Shown: one piece after another, positions 9,661 to 21,564 of the stretch | Position numbering within the stretch: the first letter of the stretch is position 1 | Layout of the letters: each line of letters begins with the position of its first letter | Made by a program: the position numbers and the translations under genes | Origin: Muribaculaceae bacterium Isolate-110 (HZI) | GTDB taxonomy: Bacteria; Bacteroidota; Bacteroidia; Bacteroidales; Muribaculaceae | Assembly: GCA_003762875.1 (NCBI GenBank) | Contig: RIBL01000005.1 | Location: 1-64,000, forward strand | Length of the DNA stretch: 64,000 nucleotides | Direction: 5' to 3' | The notes under the pieces: generated by a model | Seen by the model: only the letters and a program-made list of their open reading frames with translations | What the model was told of the DNA's origin: nothing | Database searches by the model: none

Positions 9661-9804
9661 ATGGCGACTCTCTCTAAAATACTGATTATGTGTGTTGGTC
9701 TTGTTCTCTTCGGTAACTTGTGGGCGCAAAGTTGCTTCTTTGCCCTATGCCCATTTTTATGGGGCTGTGCATATAATTTTGAGCGGAAAGGAGGCAAGCA
9801 ATGA
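9661..9804 (+). CDS. Short hydrophobic peptide heading the accessory run
   Basis: A 47-residue frame with an N-terminal hydrophobic segment (ILIMCVGLVLFGNLWAQ) resembling a signal peptide, then a Cys/Phe-rich tail ending GGKQ. A longer frame from TTG at 9583 would run into the topB terminator and is unlikely. Its last bases carry the module AAGGAGGCAAGC that also ends the genes stopping at 13032 (GGKL) and 14172 (GGKR), and the next gene starts in its ATGA overlap. It may be the remnant of a larger gene whose 3' junction survived. Expression is uncertain. Confidence 0.4.
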   Translation: MATLSKILIMCVGLVLFGNLWAQSCFFALCPFLWGCAYNFERKGGKQ

Positions 9805-10268
9805 ATAAAGGTTTTAAAATATCGTTTTGGATATTGTGCGGATTGGCTTGCGTCTTAATTGCATCAATGTGCCTCATTGGGTTATTCTCATATTTCACTC
9901 ATAATTTCAAAAAAACACAAGATGGCTACTTTGCAAAAGTAGAATATTCTATCGAAGGGTATATAACAGACAAACAAATCGTTGGTGGCCCTTACTGCCT
10001 CATAGAGTTGGAGCTAACAAAATTTGAAATAATGAAAAACGAAATCCATTCATCAGATGATTATGTAGGAGTCTTTGCCTCAGACACATCCAAAGTGTTT
10101 ATAATAGCCCCATTGCCTGAGAATTTTTCATCATCATCATTAGATAGAATCGAGATAAATACTCATAACAGACAATGCGTATTTAATGACACGTCTGTGT
10201 CCACATTAAGAACGGCATCACTTTATAAGCATAAATTGCCCAATAGTAACGGCTATATTCCCTTCTAA
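9801..10268 (+). CDS. Membrane-anchored hypothetical protein
   Basis: A 155-residue protein I do not recognise. One N-terminal membrane helix (FWILCGLACVLIASMCLIGLF, about residues 9-29) is followed by an extracytoplasmic domain of about 120 residues with beta-strand character and a Ser-rich patch (FSSSSLD). The start is set by the strong site GGAGG 11 bases upstream, inside the previous frame. It stops 2 bases before the next ATG. It belongs to the packed gene run. Confidence 0.6.
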   Translation: MNKGFKISFWILCGLACVLIASMCLIGLFSYFTHNFKKTQDGYFAKVEYSIEGYITDKQIVGGPYCLIELELTKFEIMKNEIHSSDDYVGVFASDTSKVFIIAPLPENFSSSSLDRIEINTHNRQCVFNDTSVSTLRTASLYKHKLPNSNGYIPF

Positions 10269-10270
10269 AT

Positions 10271-10829
10271 ATGGAAGATACTTTAAGATACATATTCATT
10301 GCCGTCATAGTCTATGCTGTTGGTATGGAGATATATAAGGCTGTTCGTTCGCGATCGACTGACTATTCTCTTTGGGCGATTATTGTGCTTATGGGTGCAG
10401 TGTTATGGATTTCAAGAGGATTTCTTATCTCCAGCCGGATATATGATTTCCTGATGATTGCCGTATGGCTTGTAGCAATCGGTTGTTTTGTTCTCTCGCG
10501 GAAATCCCAATACGGAAAGTATCTGAAATCTATTGCCATTGGTGGACTTTCAGTTTTCCTTGCTGTCTTTAGCTATTGGAATATAAAGGCGCAGTCCATC
10601 GTTCCAACAACCTTAATAACTTCCCTAAAGGGATATTCAACACATCGAATAGATGAGGTATGTTTCCGTTATAACGGAATTCCTTTTTGGAGAAGTTACA
10701 ATCTCAACAACTACCCCAAATGTAAAGCTACTTCCTGAACAGTACGATGTAAGTCTGACAGTCAAGCCGATTTCACCCAATGTTGCCAAACTTGAATCAA
10801 TAACCCTAATTCCAAAAGCAAAGATATGA
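10271..10829 (+). pseudogene. Membrane protein gene broken by a frameshift
   Basis: The frame opens at 10271 with four hydrophobic segments (for example YIFIAVIVYAVGMEIY and FLMIAVWLVAIGCFVL), then stops early at 10738 after 155 residues. If one T is removed from the T5 run at 10684-10688, translation continues without a stop: ...NGIPFGEVTISTTTPN... to ...ITLIPKAKI and TGA at 10827-10829. This gives about 185 residues and restores an exact ATGA overlap with the next gene. The restored overlap, typical of this operon, is strong evidence that the second frame is genuine. It could be a true mutation or an assembly/sequencing error. The function is not recognised. Confidence 0.7.
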
Positions 10830-11722
10830 AAACATCCCTCTTATATAAGATTGTGCTTTGGATGGTAATGGTGACAACATCAATACTGTTGTGCGCTGCG
10901 GCGATTCCGACAAGAACTGCCGAGTGCAATGATATGTCACGCAAAATATTATGGGTGGTTGATGGTGTGGCTCTCCATGATACCATATTCACATACACTA
11001 TTGACCGGATGAGGAGTGACAGCGCGATGGTCTATACGGCACAGTCGTTGAGCTATGTTTATCCATCCGACATTGAAAGTATCTGTGTCATGGATTCGGT
11101 AGAGGCTGCGGATTATGGCTTCGTGAATTGTAGCGGGGTTGTGAAAATTCAGACCTTCTTTCGTGAACCTTTGTTGATTGTTGTGAATGGCATCCCTTAC
11201 AAAAGCCATGTCAAAATGACAGCCGGAGAAATGTTGGGAGGTATGGACTGTATTAGTCGAATTTTAGTGAGTGAAATACATGATTTGCAGGATTACGATG
11301 TCAAGAGTGTGGATATAATAAAGGATCTTAGTGTTACCTGCCATAAACAGCGGACTCCGTTTGTGGTGATAACAACTGGGTTGCCTTATTATAGAGTAGA
11401 TGACCTTGCCGGAGCTTATTTTGCCAAACATGGCAAGCAGAGTTATACACTTCACCTAAATAATGATTCGACATATGTTTTCACGCAAAAAAGACTTGAT
11501 AGGAGAGCTATAGTTCCGGAGATTCGCAATGCCGGTACATGGAGCATATCGAGAGGCCGAATAGTTCTGAAATCAGGCAATAATCCTGAAGATTTATTAT
11601 CATCCGGATACATGACTCATGAGGGAGTGGTTCTTGATGTAAAGAATCGGGATAAGCTCACTATGCCGAAGCAGGCGTGGCATAACAGCAAAATATTAAC
11701 CTTAAAACGCCAACGAAAATGA
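10826..11722 (+). CDS. Exported protein with TonB-receptor plug-like segments
   Basis: A 298-residue protein with an N-terminal signal or anchor (about residues 8-28). Two stretches resemble the plug domain of SusC/TonB-dependent receptors. The first is WVVDGVAL with YPSDIESICVMDSVEAADYG and GVVKIQT. The second is LIVVNGIPY with YDVKSVDIIKDLSV and FVVITTG. Plug domains carry the same order (VDGVP, then DIESIEVLKD, then GVILITT). No beta-barrel follows; the C-terminal 100 residues form another small domain (YTLHLNNDSTYVFTQ, then GTWSISRGRIVLKSG). Such free-standing plug-like domains occur in Bacteroidetes; the role here is unknown. Confidence 0.6.
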   Translation: MKTSLLYKIVLWMVMVTTSILLCAAAIPTRTAECNDMSRKILWVVDGVALHDTIFTYTIDRMRSDSAMVYTAQSLSYVYPSDIESICVMDSVEAADYGFVNCSGVVKIQTFFREPLLIVVNGIPYKSHVKMTAGEMLGGMDCISRILVSEIHDLQDYDVKSVDIIKDLSVTCHKQRTPFVVITTGLPYYRVDDLAGAYFAKHGKQSYTLHLNNDSTYVFTQKRLDRRAIVPEIRNAGTWSISRGRIVLKSGNNPEDLLSSGYMTHEGVVLDVKNRDKLTMPKQAWHNSKILTLKRQRK

Positions 11723-13032
11723 AACAGATTTGGCCCATAATAGGTGTGGCGTGCGTCATGATTTCGTCAATCGGGAGAATGGCTAATTCCCTTACGGATG
11801 TGCTGATTGCTGTCGGTGCAATTGCTGTTGTCGCATTGGTTATATGGCTCTTCGAGACCGGGAGATTAACGATTAACGAGCGTCTTGGCAAAGTATTGAA
11901 GAAAATCTGTTCTTTCATATTGGTGGCGGTCGGCATAGCCTACCTCGTGGCTATGGCCGTTTTTGTTACATACAAAGTGGCGACGGAGGGAGATATGCAG
12001 GGAATTATGTTTTTGGTTATCGCAACCGTGGCATTCGGCATTTCATGGTATATCAGCAGATGGCGCAGACGGTGGGTGAAATTCCTGAAAACTTTTATGT
12101 CCAAAGACAAGATACGACATGGCGACTGGAAGATGCGCGAAAAGTATTTCCAGACATTTGACTATGCCACCAATGCCCTGTATGGACTGCGAACCGCTGG
12201 CGGCATTTTTGACGGACAGGCGAGAGTATGGCTTGACCCGTCAGATGTTGATAAAGATGCTTCCGTACGATTGGATTCATTTGAGGCAATGTTGGCGAGG
12301 CGTGGCATTAAAGCCAAGTGTGCTATGGCTCACATTCCCGGATGTATCTACGCCGATATAGTCGCTGAAACCAATTACAAATCAATGAAAGGCAGCAGTA
12401 TGACTGCATTTCGTGACGCGTTCCACGAACTTGACGGCATGAACTATCAGGGTATATATTATGCCGAGTATCATGGAGAGTTGGGCACAATCTTTTTTGA
12501 AAGTAACGCCGGAAATGTCATAAGCCGTGCGATAAGGACTGAGCCGAGAGAAGAATATTATATTGACAACGATTGCGGATTTCAATCTGAAGAAGCCCAT
12601 TATTTCATTGAGCGCGGTGTCGATTGGACCGAGGGTACATACTCGTTGATTTCAGCCAAGGAGTTTTTCGCGCTTTGGCGTGAGCGACTTGAATATGACG
12701 ATAAAGACGACGCATATTCTTTCTTTGAGCAAGCATCGCTGATGTATTTTGCTGCGGTAGCCAATGGCGACAAGAAAGAACAAACCAATAGCCGATGGGA
12801 TATTGAAAACGCCGCCAAATATCTCATAGCCCATGACGCGAAAGACGAAATGATTGAACTCATGGCAATTTATGAACAGTCGATGTATTGGGCTTCACGA
12901 CTGTTTGTAGATGTCATTCCGGAATACGCCCATGATACAGCCAATTGGTTGGTTGAATACAGCGACAATCCTGTGATTGTCTCACGCACCAAAAGACTTT
13001 TAACCCAATGGAAGAAAGGAGGCAAGCTATGA
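11719..13032 (+). CDS. Large membrane-anchored hypothetical protein
   Basis: A 437-residue protein I do not recognise. There are four hydrophobic segments in the first 115 residues (for example VLIAVGAIAVVALVIWLF and GIMFLVIATVAFGISWYI), then an Arg-rich boundary (RWRRRWVKF). A cytoplasmic domain of about 310 residues follows, rich in acidic and aromatic residues. It starts in an ATGA overlap with the plug-like gene. It ends KKGGKL with the GGAGG module that primes the following gene. It is the longest product of the accessory run. Confidence 0.6.
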   Translation: MKQIWPIIGVACVMISSIGRMANSLTDVLIAVGAIAVVALVIWLFETGRLTINERLGKVLKKICSFILVAVGIAYLVAMAVFVTYKVATEGDMQGIMFLVIATVAFGISWYISRWRRRWVKFLKTFMSKDKIRHGDWKMREKYFQTFDYATNALYGLRTAGGIFDGQARVWLDPSDVDKDASVRLDSFEAMLARRGIKAKCAMAHIPGCIYADIVAETNYKSMKGSSMTAFRDAFHELDGMNYQGIYYAEYHGELGTIFFESNAGNVISRAIRTEPREEYYIDNDCGFQSEEAHYFIERGVDWTEGTYSLISAKEFFALWRERLEYDDKDDAYSFFEQASLMYFAAVANGDKKEQTNSRWDIENAAKYLIAHDAKDEMIELMAIYEQSMYWASRLFVDVIPEYAHDTANWLVEYSDNPVIVSRTKRLLTQWKKGGKL

Positions 13033-13760
13033 ATCCGATATTATCTGATTATCTTGCAATTTGCAGCAGTTTTCGAGAAGATGGATTAAGCAAGTCGGAA
13101 AGGAAACAGCGACATACAATGCTCTCTGAATGGGAGAAAAAAGAGTATGACAATGAACATATTACCATCGGAGAAATTCGGGATTTTTGGACTAAGCATA
13201 GTAAAATTTGTTGGAACAATCAGTTTATCAACAAGATTATATGTCCTCAAATTGCCATAGATTTGGAGAATGGCGGTTTTGAGGGGCTAAAATTCTTGTT
13301 CCATTGTTTTTGCGGTCATGAGGATTCTTATCTGAATACCAATAGTCCGCTTGAACTATTCTGTAAGTTTTGTAAATATAAATACGAACCGTTTCAACTT
13401 GCAGATATGCTGCTTGAACATGATGAGGATAATGTTGATGCGCTCAGATACAAATATCATGCACTCAAGTATTTTCTTGAGTTTTCCATTCATGAAATGC
13501 CGACGGGCATATTAAATGGCATGAATGGAGCAGGTATAACGGATATTCCGGCAATGCTGAAAGATATAGAAGAATTTGAGTATCTATCAAAAAAATTAGA
13601 CACGCCACTTTGTGAAACTCTGATCAACGATTGCCGCAGATTCTATCCGGCATACAAAGATTATCTCCAAAGTTTCCGTCGTTATAAAAACTTTGTGGAA
13701 TATCTGAAAATGAACAACATCCAATACCAATCATACACTTCACGTTATGACTATGAATAG
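13029..13760 (+). CDS. Hypothetical soluble protein
   Basis: A 243-residue, mostly helical, charged protein with no signal or membrane segment. I do not recognise it. The start at 13029 is chosen over the ATG at 13008 because it sits 11 bases after the GGAGG module and gives the usual ATGA overlap with the upstream stop. The C-terminus ends SRYDYE; the stop overlaps the next start by 8 bases (ATGAATAG), exactly as at 15037-15044. It shares its flanking junction types, A before and B after, with the unrelated gene at 14169. Confidence 0.6.
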   Translation: MNPILSDYLAICSSFREDGLSKSERKQRHTMLSEWEKKEYDNEHITIGEIRDFWTKHSKICWNNQFINKIICPQIAIDLENGGFEGLKFLFHCFCGHEDSYLNTNSPLELFCKFCKYKYEPFQLADMLLEHDEDNVDALRYKYHALKYFLEFSIHEMPTGILNGMNGAGITDIPAMLKDIEEFEYLSKKLDTPLCETLINDCRRFYPAYKDYLQSFRRYKNFVEYLKMNNIQYQSYTSRYDYE

Positions 13761-14172
13761 GTGGCAGAAGATATTTGTGTGTTATTACCGTTTTCAGGAG
13801 CGTATCGGAAATGGTGATATGCCCGTATTCATTTCTATGGGCATGATGTTATTCGCATTGTATCTTTACTTATTCAGTATTACAACAGTTGTTTTATTCT
13901 CATTTGGTAATATTATAGGCTCATCTGTATTGTTCGGGCTAAAAAGCCTGACACTATTCAATATCATGTTATGTTGCTTGACGGGAACTATATTTTATCT
14001 AAAATATCTTCGAGGCGACAGATTAAACGATACGCTGTCTATTGAAATTTCAAGAACTGACAAGTTTTATGCGGCTGTATTCCTCATTGGCGGCATTTTC
14101 AGCATCTGTTGCGTTTTTATTTTCATGTGGGCAGTTAATAACGGATTCATATTGGAAGGAGGCAAGCGATGA
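13753..14172 (+). CDS. Four-helix membrane protein with MNRWQKI leader
   Basis: A 139-residue integral membrane protein with about four membrane segments (for example FISMGMMLFALYLYLFSIT and AAVFLIGGIFSICCVFIFMW). The start at 13753 is preferred over 13747 because it yields MNRWQKI, the N-terminus also found in the gene at 15037, and the same 8-base overlap with the preceding stop. The C-terminus is EGGKR, encoded by the AAGGAGGCAAGC module. No family is recognised. Confidence 0.6.
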   Translation: MNRWQKIFVCYYRFQERIGNGDMPVFISMGMMLFALYLYLFSITTVVLFSFGNIIGSSVLFGLKSLTLFNIMLCCLTGTIFYLKYLRGDRLNDTLSIEISRTDKFYAAVFLIGGIFSICCVFIFMWAVNNGFILEGGKR

Positions 14173-15044
14173 AATCACAAGATTGCTATACGGCAAAAGA
14201 GGCTTTTACGTTTCCTCTTTTCTGCCTTGTCTGTTTGGCTTTCAACATCTATTGGGGTTGCTCAGACGTTTGGCCTGTCGGAGCAATCGTTGGTGCATCG
14301 TTTTTCGGAATATTCACATTTGTGTATGTCTTCAAATATTCCCGATTCGGTCGTGACTACCTTAGAATTGATGCCAATGGGATTACATCTAAAGAATGGA
14401 GCAAAACCGCGACGCTGAAATGGTCTGAAATAGCGAAATGCACAGTATGCTATATACAGTCCTATGGGAGTGGAAGCCTCTTTTATAGAGTGCTGGACAT
14501 AATATTATTATCCGAAGCTAAACGTCCAAAGAGTTTTTCGGTAAGACTATCCGGGAAATATTGCCGCAACAAAAGTGTTATCACTGCCATTGAGCAGTTT
14601 GGCGGCTCAGAAGTCTATGACAGCCAATCATCACATGCACAAAACATGTATCTCGGCAGGATAATCCTGTTCGCTATTGGTTTGTTTGTACTATTCGCAC
14701 TATTGTCCTGCAACAATCGTCATGACCTGACTGAGAATTACTCTGTATTCACTTATGGTGAGGGATTATATGGAGAAAGTGAGGAAGGTTACCCTGTATT
14801 CGTTTCAAAACTCGGTTATAAAGATGCACCGCCATTCATTGCAAATATCCGACAAGTATGGTGGAATGATTCTACAATAATCATTGAGCAAAACAATGAT
14901 TATTGGTGGATAGTCACAGCAGTTGATAGCCGGTTGAGTTATGGAGATAAATATGTAGGCCCGCTTTCAGCCCGGGAAAAAGACAGCATTATGGTTGTCG
15001 AGAAAATCCGTATTAAACAGATGAAACATTGGAGTTATGAATAG
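14169..15044 (+). CDS. Membrane protein with PH-like domain
   Basis: A 291-residue protein. There are two N-terminal membrane segments, then a domain at about residues 60-150 resembling bacterial PH domains (DYLRIDANGITSKEW, then LKWSEIAKCTV, then FSVRLSGKY). A third hydrophobic segment (RIILFAIGLFVLFALLSC) follows, and then a C-terminal domain of about 105 residues. The PH resemblance is by eye. It starts after module A (GGAGGCAAGCG) and ends HWSYE in module B, the same flanks as the unrelated gene at 13029. Confidence 0.55.
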   Translation: MKSQDCYTAKEAFTFPLFCLVCLAFNIYWGCSDVWPVGAIVGASFFGIFTFVYVFKYSRFGRDYLRIDANGITSKEWSKTATLKWSEIAKCTVCYIQSYGSGSLFYRVLDIILLSEAKRPKSFSVRLSGKYCRNKSVITAIEQFGGSEVYDSQSSHAQNMYLGRIILFAIGLFVLFALLSCNNRHDLTENYSVFTYGEGLYGESEEGYPVFVSKLGYKDAPPFIANIRQVWWNDSTIIIEQNNDYWWIVTAVDSRLSYGDKYVGPLSAREKDSIMVVEKIRIKQMKHWSYE

Positions 15045-15735
15045 GTGGCAGAAAATAGCAGGAGTTATCATTGGAGCTATAGTTATATTGTTCCTTACTG
15101 TTCTTACAAAGATGGGGTTTAGTGTCAAACGATATAGAGAGGCTGAACAATCCGAGATTGTTGCAAGAGTAGACAGTTACATCAATAAAAATGGACGTTT
15201 GCCTGCATCTTTGTCGGAATTAGGGTTTGAGCAGACACCAGGATTATACTGTTATAAAGGAAATAGTTTAAATCTCATAAGAACAGATTATTCTAACAAT
15301 GAATATATATTGGAGTGGTGGGATCAGACTCACAAAATATGGCAATATTCATCGGAAGATAAGAAGTGGTACGACTACGAGCTTTGGGAATTTGAGCCAC
15401 CTATTAATGTTGATACTATTAGAGGAATTTACAACGTCTTTTACAGCTCACGAGCAAATATGCAAATAAAAATAGATAGTCTACGAAAGAATGATAATGT
15501 TATATTACTCTTGGACAATGATATTGAAGTTAAAGGAGATTCCATGGCATATTTGAAATTCTTATCAGGCGATACATTGAGGATGGAAGGATGGGTAGCC
15601 GTTAGGTCTCATCAACTCCCTGCATATTTGAAAGAATTTGGCACTTGGAAATACTACGATCAGGTAGGCAACTGCTACCGTAAGTTTTGGAATTATAAAG
15701 AAAACGACAGATTGATATATGAAGCTGACAGATAA
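15037..15735 (+). CDS. MNRWQKI-leader protein with pilin-like and MORN-like segments
   Basis: A 232-residue protein with one N-terminal membrane helix (IAGVIIGAIVILFLTVLT). A segment typical of type II pseudopilin-like sequences follows (EIVARVDSYINKNGRLPA, then SLSELGF). The C-terminal part resembles MORN_2/YwqK repeats (LRMEGW and EFGTWKYYDQVGNCYRKFW). The same domain order occurs in the broken gene at 17349-18008, so the two are paralogues. It starts in the 8-base module B overlap and its end overlaps the next gene by 17 bases. The function is not known; MORN_2 proteins are often found in small defence or immunity-type loci. Confidence 0.6.
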   Translation: MNRWQKIAGVIIGAIVILFLTVLTKMGFSVKRYREAEQSEIVARVDSYINKNGRLPASLSELGFEQTPGLYCYKGNSLNLIRTDYSNNEYILEWWDQTHKIWQYSSEDKKWYDYELWEFEPPINVDTIRGIYNVFYSSRANMQIKIDSLRKNDNVILLLDNDIEVKGDSMAYLKFLSGDTLRMEGWVAVRSHQLPAYLKEFGTWKYYDQVGNCYRKFWNYKENDRLIYEADR

Positions 15736-16480
15736 ACGATTTTGGATATTTGAGGCATTTGCCATACTGTCAACGGCTTTGACAGTCGGACTGATGGAAT
15801 TATTTTACAAACTCAGGTTGGATTCTGATGTCTTACCCATTTGTATCATAATTCTTATCACATACCTAATCGGGCACGCTGTGGCTTGGAAGAGCAATAG
15901 GTCTTGCGCTTGGTTAAAACTTGGACTCACTACTTATTTGTTCTCCGCTGTCGCCTTAGCGGTCATTTTTGCAATCATATTTGTTATAGATTGGCTTGCA
16001 CCAACTGAAGTATCTGACGATGTATCTGCTGACGAGCATGTAGGTTTTTCAGCTTTAGATTTAACATTGGTAATAATATTGATATGGGGTATTATTTCAT
16101 TTATTCCGACTATGGTTACCGCTTTTGTAGCCTCACTTTGTTTTAGAGCAAAGACAACGGTGGCAACAGGTATGAAGTTAAGGAGTATTTCACTTGAATC
16201 AATTGGTGTGGATGGAATTGCCTATACCAAGAGTGAAGCACTGAGAATAGCAGAGGAGTATTACAATTCAAATATACCTATTCTTGGTGGAGACGTGTAT
16301 CTCTTTAATAATGGTAACATTAAACCCACATACGACAATTGGTACTGTAATCGGAATAACTCTGAAACTTCGTATGAGTATGTTGCCCGAAGTTATCAAG
16401 TTGCCTGCGACTATATCAAAAAATATCCGGACAATGCTAATATCTTTTTCAGTATCGTTAAAGGACATATAGACAAATGA
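15719..16480 (+). CDS. MKLTDKRFW-leader membrane protein
   Basis: A 253-residue protein beginning MKLTDKRFW, directly followed by hydrophobic segments (about four in the first 145 residues). A cytoplasmic C-terminal domain of about 110 residues ends in a helical stretch (YVARSYQVACDYIKKYP). The first 17 bases overlap the end of the previous gene, so the leader DNA also encodes the upstream C-terminus YEADR. The C-terminal domain is not recognised. It is one of six frames in the run with this leader. Confidence 0.6.
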   Translation: MKLTDKRFWIFEAFAILSTALTVGLMELFYKLRLDSDVLPICIIILITYLIGHAVAWKSNRSCAWLKLGLTTYLFSAVALAVIFAIIFVIDWLAPTEVSDDVSADEHVGFSALDLTLVIILIWGIISFIPTMVTAFVASLCFRAKTTVATGMKLRSISLESIGVDGIAYTKSEALRIAEEYYNSNIPILGGDVYLFNNGNIKPTYDNWYCNRNNSETSYEYVARSYQVACDYIKKYPDNANIFFSIVKGHIDK

Positions 16481-17352
16481 AATCTGACAGCAAAATATAT
16501 CGGTTTTTCTTTGGACAGCGGGGTGAGAGGCACTTGCCATTTGGTGCTATGTTGCTGATTCTCGTGCCTTTTCTTATTGGAGGTCTGTATTTCCAGAATC
16601 GCAAGTACAATGCTTTGTCGGCAAATCCGGAACATACATCGACTGTAATTTCAGATATTGGCTATATAGGCACAAGTGGTCCTATAATATATTACAACTT
16701 TACAGTGAATGGTGTAACATATAAAGGTGGTATGCATGCCAATGGTTTTGCCGTTGGCGACAGCATAGGTGTGGTATATCAGAAAGATAACCCGGAGAAT
16801 AATATGACGGTGTTTAAATATTATGATGGCCCGTCGTATGGTTCGGTCACAATATTCGTCCTCGCTGCGATTGTTCTGGCACTATACCGATGGCGAAAAA
16901 TCAATCGAAAATACAACGAGAGCTGCCCGGAGTTGGATGGCACTGGAAGGTGTCGTATTTACCGCATTGACAAGGAATATATATTTGTTACAGTATATAA
17001 TGTCACTGCGAGTCTTCCGATTAAATTCCTCCCCATAGACTGTAGTAACGGAGAATTTGAGAATACTCTCATGGAAATATTCCACGCAAGTCTGCATGGC
17101 AAATATGTGGAGCTGAAAAACGCAGAACTGATCAAAGCCATGAAGCAACGCTCATGGCGACAGCTTTACCAATACTCCACAAGCGTGCTGCTGAAACACG
17201 ACAGCCGCACTCTGGAGATTTTGCCAACCCGGAAAGCCACCGATGGCAAAGGTCTTGACTGGGATTATTCCCGCGCCCTGTCTTTTGGCCTTGGCGGCGC
17301 GTCATGGAAAGACATCATAAACTCAACCCGAAAACTCCTTGAACAAATATGA
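16477..17352 (+). CDS. Membrane protein with DUF3592-like domain
   Basis: A 291-residue protein with two membrane segments (FGAMLLILVPFLIGGLYF and VTIFVLAAIVLALYRW). They bracket an extracytoplasmic loop resembling DUF3592 (YYNFTVNGVTYKGG, then VGDSIGVVYQKDNPENN). A cytoplasmic domain of about 165 residues follows. The start overlaps the upstream stop by 4 bases. The end (LLEQI, with CTTGAACAAATATGAAACT) is nearly identical in DNA to the end of the gene stopping at 19262. Assignment to DUF3592 is by eye. Confidence 0.55.
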   Translation: MKSDSKIYRFFFGQRGERHLPFGAMLLILVPFLIGGLYFQNRKYNALSANPEHTSTVISDIGYIGTSGPIIYYNFTVNGVTYKGGMHANGFAVGDSIGVVYQKDNPENNMTVFKYYDGPSYGSVTIFVLAAIVLALYRWRKINRKYNESCPELDGTGRCRIYRIDKEYIFVTVYNVTASLPIKFLPIDCSNGEFENTLMEIFHASLHGKYVELKNAELIKAMKQRSWRQLYQYSTSVLLKHDSRTLEILPTRKATDGKGLDWDYSRALSFGLGGASWKDIINSTRKLLEQI

Positions 17353-18008
17353 AACTAACCAATAAACGATTTTGGAACTCGCATACTTATATGGTGCTGT
17401 TGATTGTCGCGGTGTTGATTGCGATTGTTATTTCATGCAAAAGAACTATGGTTGTCAAAACCGCTGAAATAGAACGAGTCGGCAATGAAATCATTGTAAA
17501 AATTGAAGATTTCCAAAATAAATATGGGAAACTCCCTGTGAACCTCCATGAGTTGGGAGCTCCATTTGAAGACAATAAAGAAACATACGATTATCAAGGC
17601 TATATTTTATATTATGAGCCGACTAAAGACGGGAAATATTGGCTTACTATTACTTTCGGACCTGATGAGGATTATATCTATTATTCACAACGAAAATACT
17701 GGCGGTGGAATTATGACACAGAACTGTCATCAGAAAAACGTGAATAACTGTTCAAAGAAGTGTTCCAGTCATATAGACCGGTATGGAAGTATGATAGTCT
17801 TTGTGCAAATTCCGACAGTGTCAACACGATCTACCCATCGGCTCCGGATTCGCTGATTTATTGTCGTCAATACTATAAGGATGGCAAACTTGCAGCCGAA
17901 GGGTGGATGCTCCATGATTGGGATAGAGAAGGAGACTACACCGACAATATCGGAACGTGGAAGTATTACACACGCGATGGCATAATGATAGAAAAGCGAT
18001 GGCCGTAA
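17349..18008 (+). pseudogene. MKLTNKRFW-leader gene interrupted by an in-frame TAA
   Basis: The frame starts MKLTNKRFW with a membrane helix and a pilin-like segment (EIIVKIEDFQNKYGKLPV), then stops at TAA 17745-17747 after 132 residues. Directly after the stop, in the same frame, coding continues without interruption to 18008. It encodes a MORN-like tail (YYKDGKLAAEGW, then GTWKYYTRDG). The whole matches the domain order and approximate length (about 220 against 232 residues) of the intact paralogue at 15037-15735. A single point mutation therefore splits the gene. The second part alone could start only from GTG at 17760 and lacks its membrane anchor. Readthrough cannot be excluded. Confidence 0.72.
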
Positions 18009-18021
18009 ACGGAATAAAGAT

Positions 18022-18591
18022 ATGAAACTGACCGATAAACAATATAGCAATCAGATTTTTAAGCGCGTCTCATTCTGTAATGGAGGTGTTGCCGTGTGGT
18101 GGACTAAAAAGAGATTTGAGCGATGTCAATTTCTTGGATGTGATTTTTCCGATGTCCTTGCAAGAGGGTGTCGATTTATAGAATGTATTTTCAAAGGAGG
18201 TAAGTTACAACATTTCTCTATGGGTGGACGGACTTCTGTCTTGTTGCAGAAAACTGTCTATATGGGTTGCACTTTTGAAAATGTCAAATTAAGAAGTCTC
18301 GGAATTGCAGATTTCATTGGTTGTACGTTTATTAACTGCGATTTCAATACCACATTCATTGCTGCCTCATTTTCAAAGTGCAAATTTGTCGGAAAGATTT
18401 ATGGATGCGTGTTTTGCGGGCCGAAGTTCGACAGCTATTATTATGGAAATAAATTATCATTTTTAGTGTCTAATAAAGGACGATTGGAGGAAGTTGACTT
18501 TTCCGAAGCAAGTTTTACTGATGTAGATTTTCGTGGAGGTATTGATTTATCAAAGGTTCTGATGCCTCACGCCATCATAAACAGGATGTGA
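18022..18591 (+). CDS. Pentapeptide-repeat protein with MKLTDKQ leader
   Basis: A 189-residue protein. After the leader MKLTDKQYSN come repeated five-residue units with a central Phe or Leu (RCQFLGCDFSDVLARGCRF is a clear run), forming the right-handed beta helix typical of pentapeptide-repeat proteins. It is Cys-rich and has no membrane segment. The leader DNA (ATGAAACTGACCGATAAAC) is the one that elsewhere in this run precedes membrane helices. Pentapeptide-repeat proteins can bind partner proteins such as gyrase; no target is evident here. The upstream broken gene ends 13 bases before it. Confidence 0.72.
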   Translation: MKLTDKQYSNQIFKRVSFCNGGVAVWWTKKRFERCQFLGCDFSDVLARGCRFIECIFKGGKLQHFSMGGRTSVLLQKTVYMGCTFENVKLRSLGIADFIGCTFINCDFNTTFIAASFSKCKFVGKIYGCVFCGPKFDSYYYGNKLSFLVSNKGRLEEVDFSEASFTDVDFRGGIDLSKVLMPHAIINRM

Positions 18592-18593
18592 TT

Positions 18594-19262
18594 ATGAAGA
18601 TACAGGACGTTAAAAAGCATATTTTCTCCACCTTGGAGCCATTCGCCGCTGCTAACGGTTTCAAGATTCTCAGAGGTCGATTTGCGTTGAGTCGAAAAGT
18701 CGGCAGTCGTACTGATGGAATATTCTTTACTTATTGTTCATGGGGTTTTGAGGTAAACATATTTCCGTATGTCAGAGTGGACTATGGAGAGATAACCACA
18801 ATATGCAATGACTGTGGTTTCACTCTGAACCATTCTGCATTTATAAACCTTTTATTGCTTCAAAGAATAAAACTGCAAGGATTTAATCCGGATTTAAGAT
18901 GGAAAATGCAGGTTGCCAAAACAGACCGCTTTATTCTTTTAGACAATGAGTATGACGACTACAATCGGCTTGATATGGGGCTGTCTCCATTACTTCCTAT
19001 TGCATTGGATTTTCTCTCTCAATATGACAGTATCGATTCAATAGACCGGCTATTCAATACTATGCCAATAGAACAATATAGTCCATATTGTTCCGGTCTT
19101 GATACTCATTGTATGGTTGGACTAATTTCTGCCAAACTCTCCAATAACGCTGATTACGAAAACGTTAAACGAATGTACCAACGAATCGTGAAAAAAGAAG
19201 ATTTCACAAGCGAGATGAAATCATCTTTTTTACGAGTTGTTGCTTATCTTGAACAAATATGA
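18594..19262 (+). CDS. Hypothetical soluble protein ending LEQI
   Basis: A 222-residue protein without signal or membrane segment. I do not recognise it. The N-terminal half carries a mixed alpha/beta pattern (GFKILRGRFALSRKV, then WGFEVNIFPYVRVDYGE), the C-terminal half is helical. The ATG at 18594 is preferred over the GTG at 18588. The stop overlaps the next ATG (ATATGA). The last 11 bases plus the next gene's leader repeat the junction at 17338-17378. Confidence 0.58.
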   Translation: MKIQDVKKHIFSTLEPFAAANGFKILRGRFALSRKVGSRTDGIFFTYCSWGFEVNIFPYVRVDYGEITTICNDCGFTLNHSAFINLLLLQRIKLQGFNPDLRWKMQVAKTDRFILLDNEYDDYNRLDMGLSPLLPIALDFLSQYDSIDSIDRLFNTMPIEQYSPYCSGLDTHCMVGLISAKLSNNADYENVKRMYQRIVKKEDFTSEMKSSFLRVVAYLEQI

Positions 19263-19834
19263 AACTGACCGATAAACGATTTTGGAACAGATGTGGAAAC
19301 GCGGTCAATGAGCTATTCTTTTGGCTCTTTATTGCGTTTGCCGTGTTGCTCGCCATTGATTTATGGTGTTTGTTGGCGACTGCCATAGTATGCCTGTTCG
19401 GGGAAATGGGTAAATCGTTGACATTGTTGAAAATATTTGGAGCATTTGGGATAATTCTCATACTATTCTCCAATTTTACATTATGGCTGACAATGTATTC
19501 GCCAAAGATATACAAACGGCTTGTGCCAGTAGTCCGTAGTAAACGACTGAGACTATTGTATTTCCTGACATTAGGCTATGTGAACGTATATCTGCTGAAC
19601 CTCTATTACATCAGATTCAGATATAACCAGTATGAACTGACACAGTATCGTGTAGATGTGTCATATTCGGTTTTAGTCATGTTCCCAATCATAAATATCC
19701 CGGTCTATGTAGCGGCCATTCGTCGCAACGATCAGCCAGTGCCCTTAGGCGATGCGGCTAAGTTATATATGCATGGAAGATTGGCGACGTACCTGATACA
19801 AAAGGATTATTCATCATTAACAGAGAATCAGTGA
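19259..19834 (+). CDS. MKLTDKRFW-leader membrane protein
   Basis: A 191-residue integral membrane protein starting MKLTDKRFWNR. There are about five hydrophobic segments (for example LFIAFAVLLAIDLWCLLATA and LLYFLTLGYVNVYLLNLYYI), then a short cytoplasmic tail. The leader is most like that at 17349. No family is recognised. Its stop overlaps the next ATG by 1 base. Confidence 0.58.
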   Translation: MKLTDKRFWNRCGNAVNELFFWLFIAFAVLLAIDLWCLLATAIVCLFGEMGKSLTLLKIFGAFGIILILFSNFTLWLTMYSPKIYKRLVPVVRSKRLRLLYFLTLGYVNVYLLNLYYIRFRYNQYELTQYRVDVSYSVLVMFPIINIPVYVAAIRRNDQPVPLGDAAKLYMHGRLATYLIQKDYSSLTENQ

Positions 19835-20214
19835 TGAAACGATATTATCTGTTTGATTACATCTGGTATATTGGCGAGGCTTTGAGGGAAAAAGATGGCA
19901 ATCCGTCAAGTGGGAGTCTGACTCTTAACTTTGTATGGCTGTTTGGAATTCTTGTTCCGTTATTGCTGCCAGTGATGTACCGGCTCTTTGGAAATCCGGC
20001 AGCGATAATATGCGGACTCGCCCTGTTATTTTTGCCCGAAATCTTTTGCAGACTGCGCTATACCGAGCAACGCCGCAAGGAGATAATGGAGCATTATTCC
20101 GGTATGAAGAGGCTGTACCAGCGGTTGTTTGTCATCTATGGCTCAATAATTCTGTTTGCGGCTACAGTTTTAATCATAATGTTTAGTCTTGGGTTCATTA
20201 CAAAGAAGCTATGA
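19834..20214 (+). CDS. Small membrane protein
   Basis: A 126-residue protein with two membrane hairpins (FVWLFGILVPLLLPVMYRLF with IICGLALLFLPEIF, and a C-terminal helix FVIYGSIILFAATVLIIMF). A charged cytoplasmic loop lies between them. The ATG at 19834 is preferred to the GTG one codon upstream. It ends ITKKL in the ATGA overlap with the next leader gene. No family is recognised. Confidence 0.55.
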   Translation: MKRYYLFDYIWYIGEALREKDGNPSSGSLTLNFVWLFGILVPLLLPVMYRLFGNPAAIICGLALLFLPEIFCRLRYTEQRRKEIMEHYSGMKRLYQRLFVIYGSIILFAATVLIIMFSLGFITKKL

Positions 20215-20624
20215 AACTGAAAAATAAACAATTTTGGGTTTATATCGGCATAATAGTCCTAATGCCGATTATGATGAGCGTCTTTACAGGGCTTGTACTT
20301 ATGAAAGGTAATTTCGTGGAATTGTTCCATAGTATAAATGCAGAGCTTTTCTTAATTTGGGAGTTTGCATATATCATTGGCGGACTAATTTCATATCGTA
20401 AAATTGGATATTTGAATTGGATTCAATATTCATTTCTTTGTTGGATAGTTGTATGTCCTTTTATAAATGTTTTATCCTTTATATGGGCAGGGCTAAGAAT
20501 CCAAGACGGTTTTACAGGATTAGCATACTTCATGATTTCCCTGATTTCATGGGGATTCACTATTATACCGCTATCAGCAGGAATGTGGCTGTATGTAAAA
20601 CATTATAACATTAAAGCACAGTAA
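20211..20624 (+). CDS. MKLKNKQFW-leader four-helix membrane protein
   Basis: A 137-residue integral membrane protein with about four helices and short loops. The leader MKLKNKQFW is a variant of MKLTDKRFW and is followed directly by the first helix (VYIGIIVLMPIMMSVFTGLV). No enzyme motif is visible. It stops 3 bases before the next ATG. Confidence 0.55.
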   Translation: MKLKNKQFWVYIGIIVLMPIMMSVFTGLVLMKGNFVELFHSINAELFLIWEFAYIIGGLISYRKIGYLNWIQYSFLCWIVVCPFINVLSFIWAGLRIQDGFTGLAYFMISLISWGFTIIPLSAGMWLYVKHYNIKAQ

Positions 20625-20627
20625 GAT

Positions 20628-21173
20628 ATGAAACTCAGAACTATTGTAGTCTTAACAATATGTGTCATGATAACCTGCACATATGCCCTCTATAATTTTA
20701 TCGCTGTCCCTATCCTGTTTTATGTATGGATGACGATTGCATTCCTTGTCACATCAAAGAAAAAACAAATAAAACTTAACTGCATAGATTTTCTGAATAA
20801 ATACAGTTGGTATTATTTGGGTGTATCTGTATTACTTGTTTTATTAGCCACGGTTAACTCTATCGGGTATCAAAATAGGACAAAAGAATATCAGAAATGC
20901 TTTGATGCAGAAGTCAATGATACGGTTGTAAGTTTAGAACGTTGGGGTAAGATGGGGAATAAGGTGCGACTAACCAATGGAGAGTCATTTGGGATATTTA
21001 TCGCCCCATTAACTAAAGTTATTGAATTAGAAAACGTAATACAGAAAAAGAAGAATATAGTAATTCTGCATAAGAAAGCCCAAAACGATACTATAGTTTT
21101 CGTGGATTCATACGACTACGAATGGACTTTTAAAATTGCGAATCCATCATTAAAAACTATTTTTGAAGATTAA
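20628..21173 (+). CDS. Membrane protein with extracytoplasmic tail
   Basis: A 181-residue protein with three hydrophobic segments in the first 80 residues (for example YYLGVSVLLVLLATVNSIGY). A hydrophilic domain of about 100 residues follows. It begins MKLR, sharing only the first bases of the leader, and the upstream bases TAAGATATGAAA match those at 10820 and 18016. The family is not recognised. Confidence 0.55.
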   Translation: MKLRTIVVLTICVMITCTYALYNFIAVPILFYVWMTIAFLVTSKKKQIKLNCIDFLNKYSWYYLGVSVLLVLLATVNSIGYQNRTKEYQKCFDAEVNDTVVSLERWGKMGNKVRLTNGESFGIFIAPLTKVIELENVIQKKKNIVILHKKAQNDTIVFVDSYDYEWTFKIANPSLKTIFED

Positions 21174-21207
21174 GAGGCTTTGTCATAACTATATCATTGT
21201 TAATACA

Positions 21208-21564
21208 ATAAAACTAACTGATAAACGATTTTGGATGGCATGGCTTGTGCTTCTCCTATTGGCGATTGTGAGTTGTATGACAGAAGGCTGGAACGAGGAT
21301 ACGGCGTTGCTCGGTGCGGCTTATGCGCTGTCGCTATTATCGACATGGCTATGTTATAGGGTCAGACCGAGAGCAGCGTTAGGTAATCTGATTGTGATGA
21401 TAGCCTATAATGCCATATTGAGTTACAATCTTGTCTTCGATAGCCGTTATGGAGAAGGGCTGACATGGTGGTTTTATGCGTTGCTGTTGAACTCTATTCA
21501 TTCAATTGTATTGCTTGTTTATTGTCTTGTTATACGATTTGCACCAACCGGGCAACGGCAATAA
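21208..21564 (+). CDS. MKLTDKRFW-type frame with ATA in place of ATG
   Basis: The leader cassette is complete in sequence (KLTDKRFWMAW) but its first codon is ATA at 21208-21210, where the sibling genes have ATG. Translation might use this rare codon, the in-frame ATG at 21235 (MAWLVLLLLAIVSC), or TTG at 21163. The product would be a small membrane protein with four hydrophobic segments, 109 to 133 residues. It is the last gene of the run, ending 25 bases before the convergent cardiolipin synthase gene. It may be degenerating. Confidence 0.5.
   Translation: MKLTDKRFWMAWLVLLLLAIVSCMTEGWNEDTALLGAAYALSLLSTWLCYRVRPRAALGNLIVMIAYNAILSYNLVFDSRYGEGLTWWFYALLLNSIHSIVLLVYCLVIRFAPTGQRQ

Follow-up and report, generated by a model that had tools for sequence, protein, structure and literature searches.

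A shared 5' coding leader as a likely joint for exchange among the genes of an orphan-immunity-type array in Muribaculaceae

Gene array in the window

The window analysed here, 64,000 nucleotides of contig RIBL01000005.1 of Muribaculaceae bacterium Isolate-110 (HZI), contains a co-oriented array of 19 short ORFs on the forward strand (9801..21564), two of which are pieces of one broken gene. The array is flanked by what we take to be a topoisomerase III-like gene and a cardiolipin-synthase-like gene. Its GC content is 0.397, compared with 0.502 elsewhere in the window; 13 of its 19 ORFs are below 41% GC, and 17 of the 18 internal gaps are tight, ranging from -25 to +13 nt. When all 19 array proteins were searched against Pfam, two gave matches above the curated cut-offs. 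The first is a pentapeptide-repeat protein (18022..18591, + strand); the second is a membrane protein with a C-terminal Imm40 domain (15719..16480, +; PF15569, E 7.4e-14, residues 158-240), which is the sole known immunity domain that Pfam identifies among the 19 proteins and whose gene is headed by the leader described below. Relatives of this Imm40 leader gene are found in 3 of 61 genomes, its own included.

Between these two genes lie a gene for a 291-aa protein with a DUF3592 match under the cut-off (16477..17352, +) and another leader-headed gene (17349..18008, +), which together with the gap that follows it makes up a 673-bp segment, 17349-18021, that is absent from the related stretch L058. 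The latter gene has an in-frame stop at codon 133, and the corresponding 660 bp of the L060 homologue form an uninterrupted frame. Downstream of the pentapeptide gene is a gene of family F12 (18588..19262, +), which has no Pfam match above cut-off and follows the pentapeptide family in all six loci in which F12 was found. Other arrays with the leader hold Imm40, DUF2750/Imm16 and SUKH proteins. No Pfam toxin domain is found among the 19 array proteins of the window, nor is a tyrosine recombinase found among them by Pfam or, by eye only, in the direct neighbours. An anti-phage defence role was also considered and set aside, as PADLOC returned no match for the 10 of 19 array proteins submitted. 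A search for an empty chromosomal site, by coordinates only, among homologues of the two flanking genes in 27 genomes of the genus gave no window-like arrangement that could be taken for an empty site.

The pentapeptide-repeat gene and its relatives

The gene at 18022..18591 is an ATG-started ORF for a 189-aa protein with the N-terminus MKLTDKQYSNQIFK, of which the first residues are MKLTDKQYS. Its match to the Pentapeptide model (PF00805, E 1.3e-11) exceeds the curated cut-off, and the AlphaFold model (11 sequences; mean pLDDT 76.8) consists of repeated short strands, so that sequence and model both indicate tandem pentapeptide coils. The model places a coil at residues 1-6 and the first strand at residues 7-9, with a mean pLDDT of 86 over residues 1-10; thus, the six residues encoded by the leader core are predicted to stand before the repeat coils and may still pack against them. 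The maximum hydrophobicity of the pentapeptide cluster is 1.14 (in its longest member, from L067), and it is therefore without a strongly hydrophobic stretch.

The best PDB matches of the protein are to the SV2C luminal domain, MfpA, QnrB1 and a McbG-like protein by profile and to AlbG, Qnr and MfpA by fold, with TM-scores by query length of 0.25-0.46 across the 19 fold matches with E <= 0.001. Thus, the protein shares the pentapeptide-repeat sequence with Qnr, MfpA and AlbG/McbG, which are among its best PDB matches by both methods, but it scores far below the curated NCBIfam cut-offs for Qnr and MfpA (28.2 bits for the best model, QnrC, against cut-offs of 240-500), and protection of gyrase by the array protein is not implied by this resemblance. 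Identity with the anti-phage protein HalA was likewise rejected, as a score of 30 bits against an NCBIfam cut-off of 250 was taken as resemblance between repeats.

Relatives of the protein are present in 11 of 198 genomes of the family, its own included; these genomes give 12 matches and belong to 7 of 30 genera. The 11 matches besides the window protein itself show 64-94% identity to it, which suggests horizontal spread of the gene. The protein has no match at E <= 1e-10 in 72,556 plasmid records, and among viral contigs L114 holds a truncated relative and L115 a weak match with 25% identity. The truncated relative (L114:4990-5267) is a gene of the L064 type within which the viral contig ends; the contig carries what we take to be Mu-like transposition genes, so that a transposing phage seems to have inserted itself into an array of this kind. 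The pentapeptide proteins of L067 and L068 are extended at the C-terminus (genes L067:12344-13222 and L068:8553-9422). The L067 extension scores as Imm40 (E 2.1e-14), and that of L068 can be aligned with it. The partner of Imm40 therefore differs among these genes, being a pentapeptide region in L067 and L068 and a membrane region in the window gene. From the place of the pentapeptide protein in the array and its fusion to Imm40 in relatives, we propose that it is probably itself an immunity module.

The leader and its copies

The consensus leader, ATGAAACTGACCGATAAACGATTTTGG, matches the first 19 nt of the pentapeptide gene exactly and differs from it at four of the final 8 nt. Codons 7-9 of the gene are CAATATAGC (QYS), compared with CGATTTTGG (RFW) in the leader. 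The first-pass annotation of this DNA had claimed that the same leader DNA that precedes membrane proteins here heads a soluble beta-helix protein; the pentapeptide ORF is real, and the claim holds for nucleotides 1-19 and not for codons 7-9. The 18-nt core (18022..18039, +), encoding MKLTDK, is the part with high identity among unrelated pairs of sites.

Five further copies occur in the window, all on the forward strand: that of the Imm40 gene, inside which the stop of the upstream gene falls (15719..15745); one at the left edge of the segment missing from L058 (17349..17375); one equal to the consensus, where a homology block covering 18022-19286 ends in five loci (19259..19285); a diverged copy encoding MKLKNKQFW (20211..20237); and one in which ATA replaces the start codon (21208..21234). 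These five sites, 15719, 17349, 19259, 20211 and 21208, were all found with a protein-degenerate leader pattern at <=3 mismatches (0.02 sites expected), which misses the pentapeptide gene itself. A repeat finder joins 18022 to the leader family at 66% identity over 41 nt, and a laxer pattern (<=2 mismatches) has 11 matches in the same genome, spread over three contigs and including 18022, with none in the reversed control. The leader pattern at <=2 mismatches is present in 40 of 397 genomes of the family, again with the source genome included and with none in the reversed controls. In a collection of 84,980 genomes, the exact degenerate pattern is found in 36 stretches, among whose titles are Muribaculaceae, Bacteroides, Phocaeicola, Barnesiella, Alistipes, Butyricimonas, Leyella, Xylanibacter and one MAG labelled Clostridia.

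Individual copies show further peculiarities. ATA stands for ATG in two of them (window 21208-21234 and L002:5893-5919), so that the DNA of the leader persists even where it no longer provides a start codon. A ten-base stub of the leader (ATGAAACTAA) directly precedes the full pentapeptide leader in L061:8287, L062:970, L065:12942 and L031:341, as if a joint had been formed imprecisely. In L058 (5959-6324, 6992-7561), the pentapeptide leader shares the ATGATA variant with another leader that lies 1.2 kb beyond it in that array, a pattern that resembles conversion of one copy by the other.

Block edges and the mosaic of neighbours

The comparison of the window with L058 places the leader at the edges of homology blocks. 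Window 15719-17370 is 94.2% and window 18022-19286 is 95.7% identical to L058 (BLAST blocks). A stretch of 22 nt in L058, one leader, belongs to both blocks. The window is longer by 673 bp, from leader 17349 to leader 18022, and has two leaders where L058 has one. On the other side, the blocks covering 18022-19286 stop where the following leader ends (19286), as seen in L058, L060, L061, L062 and L065. Across 22 stretches plus the window, which contain 68 leaders, a leader ATG is the site of 56 of 207 block starts, with 1.6 expected; of the 206 block ends, 50 lie shortly after such an ATG (2.3 expected), often at a distance of 18-30 nt, and the right edge has its peaks at +18 and +27. The 218 ORF starts without a leader coincide with 58 block starts (5.2 expected) and 14 block ends (7.2 expected). 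Because block starts are enriched at non-leader ORFs too, with ends little enriched there, genes in general are exchange units, and first codons held in common with unrelated neighbours mainly mark the leader genes.

To describe the neighbours of the leader, we used 42 stretches (525 kb), comprising 20 long stretches, 19 short loci, the window and two other stretches of its own genome, all chosen for holding a leader or pentapeptide match and taking in part of the places that the leader search of the 397 family genomes gave. They contain 96 leader-like sites at <=8 mismatches, compared with 1 in the reversed control; three further pentapeptide copies, starting MKLTSK, were too diverged and were left out. 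When the 300-nt flanks of the 96 sites were clustered, 42 clusters resulted on the upstream and 36 on the downstream side, paired in 79 combinations. The commonest upstream partner, cluster U0, to which the 291-aa gene at 16477-17352 belongs, precedes 14 sites with 11 downstream clusters, and the pentapeptide cluster occurs at 9 sites behind 5 upstream clusters. The 16 sites from genomes of few contigs make up 16 different junctions with partners repeated on both sides, and an assembly error is therefore unlikely as the cause of the mosaic.

Sites with more than 7 mismatches, ORFs shorter than 20 aa or flanks shorter than 150 nt were dropped before the identity and segregation tests, which reduced the 96 sites to 90. 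Among the 3664 pairs of sites unrelated on both sides, mean identity in 9-nt steps is 0.24-0.32 up to the base before the ATG, rises to 0.88 (+0..+8), 0.91 (+9..+17) and 0.74 (+18..+26), and single positions are at background from +30. As the sites were found through the leader itself, conservation inside it is in part due to selection of the sites; its edges and the segregation of its parts are not. Segregation was tested by 500 permutations on 73 junctions, each represented by a single site. Positions 0-18 go with the upstream cluster (a value that 0 of 500 permutations reached; 466 of 500 for the downstream cluster), as do the sub-stretches 0-12 (6/500), 0-15 (11/500) and 3-9 (24/500), although this could in part reflect last codons of the upstream gene that overlap the leader. 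Positions 12-27 track the downstream cluster (0 of 500; 363 of 500 for the upstream cluster), which is partly trivial given that codons 7-9 are part of the bodies. Since the left part of the leader follows the upstream gene and the right part the downstream gene, the exchange seems to fall inside the leader.

The same identity profile bears on the idea that the leader genes are duplicates of one ancestor whose bodies diverged past recognition while the 5' end was kept. The position of the leader, which is the same in every gene, would fit such an origin. Identity nevertheless falls to background within a few nucleotides past the leader, the bodies belong to different families (pentapeptide proteins, Imm16 proteins and membrane proteins with Imm40), and a toxin-adjacent Imm16 relative, described below, has a different N-terminus; we regard common descent of whole genes as very improbable. 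The turnover of neighbours is only suggestive: the mean chance for two family members to have the same upstream neighbour is 0.42 for 30 leaderless families, 0.48 for all 40 and 0.25 for the 7 leader families, one of which, F13, has a fixed upstream neighbour.

Conservation as DNA or as peptide

A protein reading of the leader is that it serves as a positively charged N-tail, selected as a peptide, that places the first membrane helix or signal peptide. A strongly hydrophobic stretch does directly follow the leader in most cases, as a 19-mer with KD >= 1.6 lies within residues 7-45 in 20 of 29 leader-headed downstream clusters; some of the other clusters resemble signal peptides or lipoproteins by eye, and the clusters of the other five leader genes of the window have hydrophobicities of 1.46-2.54. 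The soluble pentapeptide proteins are leader-headed as well, however, and this also applies to Imm16/DUF2750, another family that is soluble throughout (3 loci, two clusters). The expectation from the first-pass annotation that a membrane helix follows the leader in the other genes is thus borne out for the 20 clusters and not for Imm16/DUF2750.

Codon choice is conserved besides the residues. A search for MKLTDKRFW in all synonymous spellings in 59 genomes found 20 sites in 11 genomes, with Arg encoded by CGA at 17, Leu by CTG at 18, Asp by GAT at 20 and Phe by TTT at 20 of them, and the shares of these codons in the window are 0.09-0.21, 0.20-0.23, 0.35-0.58 and 0.57-0.63, respectively. As the 20 sites share descent, this shows a common DNA origin and not 20 independent choices. 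Within the pentapeptide family, the first 18 nt of the window gene are identical at 18/18 and 17/18 positions to those of L067 and L068, compared with agreement at 71 of 126 (L067) and 60 of 124 (L068) codons for the same residue elsewhere; the distant L059 copy agrees at 13/18, without excess conservation of the leader.

Leaderless relatives are known for two leader-headed families. DUF2750 is found in 4 of 147 genomes, in three of which it is an array copy starting MKLTDKEIS. In the fourth, G125, a DUF2750 protein (E 2e-18) directly follows a Rhs-like protein ending in Ntox8 (E 4.1e-14); its likely start is MEDETSPNELWISKEEF, and nothing in this stretch of 16 kb matches the leader with fewer than 11 mismatches. 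In the alignment of these Imm16 proteins, MKLTDK replaces the native N-terminus, with AAAGAA at the joint in both. In F13, the N-terminus is MKLTDKNSEIRIY in three near-identical members and MNNRTDIYPS in two others, with MNNRIDIYPS at a more internal position in a third of these others; in the alignment, the leader is here added ahead of the native start. By comparison, all 12 pentapeptide matches begin with MKLT or MILT, then D or S, then K or R, and when 392 genomes of the order were searched with a profile for a leaderless homologue (E <= 1e-20), the gene of the window itself was the sole hit. The comparison with leaderless homologues that had been suggested for the pentapeptide family finds a leader-like N-terminus in 12 of 12 matches. 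This goes half way towards what the first-pass annotation had named as a refutation, an N-terminus common to all homologues elsewhere as a part of their fold, and dispensability of the leader is shown only for the other families.

With leaderless homologues in F13 and Imm16, soluble bodies, conserved codons and ATA in place of ATG in two copies, we consider it rather unlikely that the leader is maintained as a peptide. The earlier view that it is kept as DNA and not for one protein function is well supported by the unrelated soluble and membrane bodies, the codons, the block edges and the segregation; its wording, "rather than protein function", would not necessarily carry over to the membrane members, in which the leader may act as a charged N-tail.

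Translation coupling

The leader carries a stop in each of the other two frames, one in aTGA and the other as TGA or TAA at +11/+14. At 51 of 73 junctions, the upstream gene stops inside the leader or abuts it: the stop is TAA at +14 in 23 and ATGA in 17, falls at +11 in five others and at +7 in a single one, and abuts the leader in the last five. The stop lies upstream at 19 of the remaining junctions, and 3 have none in range. Overlap or abutment with the preceding ORF is found for 42 of 56 leader genes (58 examined) and 81 of 177 other array genes (213 examined), and deep overlap for 23 of 56 and 22 of 177, respectively. Coupling is thus common, not obligatory.

These numbers, in particular the 23 TAA at +14 and the 17 ATGA, would suit a leader selected mainly as a stop-start element, which terminates any entering ORF and provides a strong start so that genes joined to the operon are translated by coupling, with recombination as a by-product. 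Overlaps are, however, also common among array genes that lack the leader; 22 of the 73 junctions have no upstream stop in or beside the leader, including that of the pentapeptide type, as the gene upstream of 18022 ends 13 nt before it without overlap; and selection for coupling does not account for the left and right parts of the leader going with different neighbours. We therefore think it unlikely, though less so than selection as a peptide, that coupling is the main function. Among the roles suggested by the first-pass annotation, initiation, coupling and recombination, the last is the best evidenced, and coupling applies to the 51 junctions and not to the gene for which it was put forward.

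Is the leader a recombinase site?

Joints precise to a few nucleotides could also result if the leader were the attachment site of a dedicated, integron-like recombinase that inserts immunity genes singly. Genes of mobile elements do accompany many of the arrays: among the 22 long stretches, 9 share the set F6, F8 and F9 (DUF6043, DUF3987 and NikA-like), of which seven also have a MobA-type relaxase family and six a RhuM/Fic gene, and the tyrosine-recombinase-like family F1 has a member in 13, these families being named from one member each. Element-borne arrays such as L058 have a phage-integrase-like gene, scored below the cut-off of its curated NCBIfam model. In the window array, none of the F6, F8, F9, MobA-type or RhuM/Fic genes was found, and no recombinase was found among its 19 proteins. 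Folding of three leader DNAs gave no hairpin that stands out (z -0.18, 0.03 and 0.57; the 3' ends of the genes were outside the folded DNA), and a structured recombination site at the leader was rejected for want of a fold signal in these three. As the right edge of the joint also varies, with its peaks at +18 and +27, we consider a dedicated attachment site improbable.

Proposed mechanism

The mosaic and its edges are directly observed, and recombination as its maker is a strong inference from them, as the stretches contain products of recombination and not an event itself. We propose that the leader is likely a shared joint through which the modular genes of orphan-immunity arrays recombine, and that it also acts as a stop-start element. 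The leader suits exchange because it carries the start and first codons as well as stops in both other frames. The unrelated genes have the same ~18-27 nt of coding DNA at their 5' ends (ATGAAACTGACCGATAAA, in many cases with CGATTTTGG next to it), and recombination between two leaders would delete, insert or swap the genes between them, by way of short homology or of strand switching between direct repeats. A new gene would join the array once the leader replaces its 5' end. The leader would bring the start codon and first codons, so that each product keeps a working start, and through its out-of-frame stops an ORF entering out of frame would end in the leader and be coupled to the next gene. 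The pentapeptide gene would be one such module, with its first predicted strand at residue 7, right after the leader core.

Some points were counted against the leader as a joint. About 27 bp is near the lower limit for RecA-dependent exchange, leaderless genes change neighbours too, and homology blocks also start at non-leader ORFs. A more far-reaching version is that the leader is a dedicated and selected capture site in coding sequence, a universal start-stop header by which gut Bacteroidales would take immunity genes from the toxin loci of rivals, replace their 5' end and slot them into an array, as an attC-free analogue of an integron; we see this version as possible, though doubtful.

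Relation to known systems

Heterogeneous polyimmunity loci, as described in the part of the article considered here, are tight, co-oriented groups of unrelated immunity genes without toxins between them that vary among strains and sometimes lie beside recombinases (Zhang et al., 2012, PMC3482391). The window array resembles them in its single strand, small gaps and lack of toxin genes in between, and is taken as a locus of this orphan-immunity type, though with one known immunity domain in the window. The same part of PMC3482391 pairs Imm40 with Ntox19 and Imm16/DUF2750 with Ntox8, and the latter pair is that of the Rhs-Ntox8 protein and the following Imm16 protein in G125. It names no shared coding leader at gene starts, and the word "pentapeptide" does not occur in it.

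The rAID loci treated in a 2025 preprint are, according to the part considered, recognized by co-directional genes below 41% GC (PMC12247911). The window array is likewise co-directional with 13 of 19 ORFs below that value, and both consist of co-oriented short genes with orphan immunity in gut Bacteroidales and may have conserved motifs at gene boundaries in common. In contrast to rAID, the present motif lies inside coding sequence at the start codon, and no recombinase was found with the window array, unlike the tyrosine recombinase that adjoins rAID.

Integron gene cassettes are arrays of interchangeable genes with a common joint, the folded 3' attC site. Both systems thus have interchangeable genes with a common joint, but the present joint is coding DNA at the 5' end, in which no hairpin was found. 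By analogy, the leader would work like a cassette joint, and the array as a class fits polyimmunity loci.

The string MKLTDKRFW was not found in the literature text searched, and the titles and abstract beginnings listed by our searches contain no description of a shared coding leader of immunity genes, though an earlier description is possible. How orphan-immunity arrays gain gene copies is stated to be "not yet clear" in the part of the preprint considered (PMC12247911). A precise joint and a mosaic of 79 combinations make this question testable by a reporter assay. The leader is also a sequence tag for unknown immunity genes, any newly found leader-headed gene being a candidate, and a joint for swapping and re-ordering genes of self-protection could explain how gut bacteria collect defences against the toxins of rivals.

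Other elements at the gene boundaries

A second shared joint, a GGAGG-type box (GCGGAAAGGAGGCAAGCG), lies just 5' of the ATG before several unrelated array families. At <=6 mismatches it has 28 sites compared with 2 in the reversed control, 11 of the 28 having 4-6 mismatches, including four false matches inside family F2 that are not at junctions. The sites include 9801, 13029 and 14169 in the window, L065:6760 and L070:6141, and in L085 and L087 the box stands directly before the leader. On the question of a rAID-type intergenic motif, the observation is that this box precedes several array families. Finally, a radical-SAM gene (F18) adjoins one or two genes of family F5 ahead of the arrays in L001, L064, L065, L075 and L077, and the F5 members tested have CarboxypepD-reg or TonB C-terminal domains.
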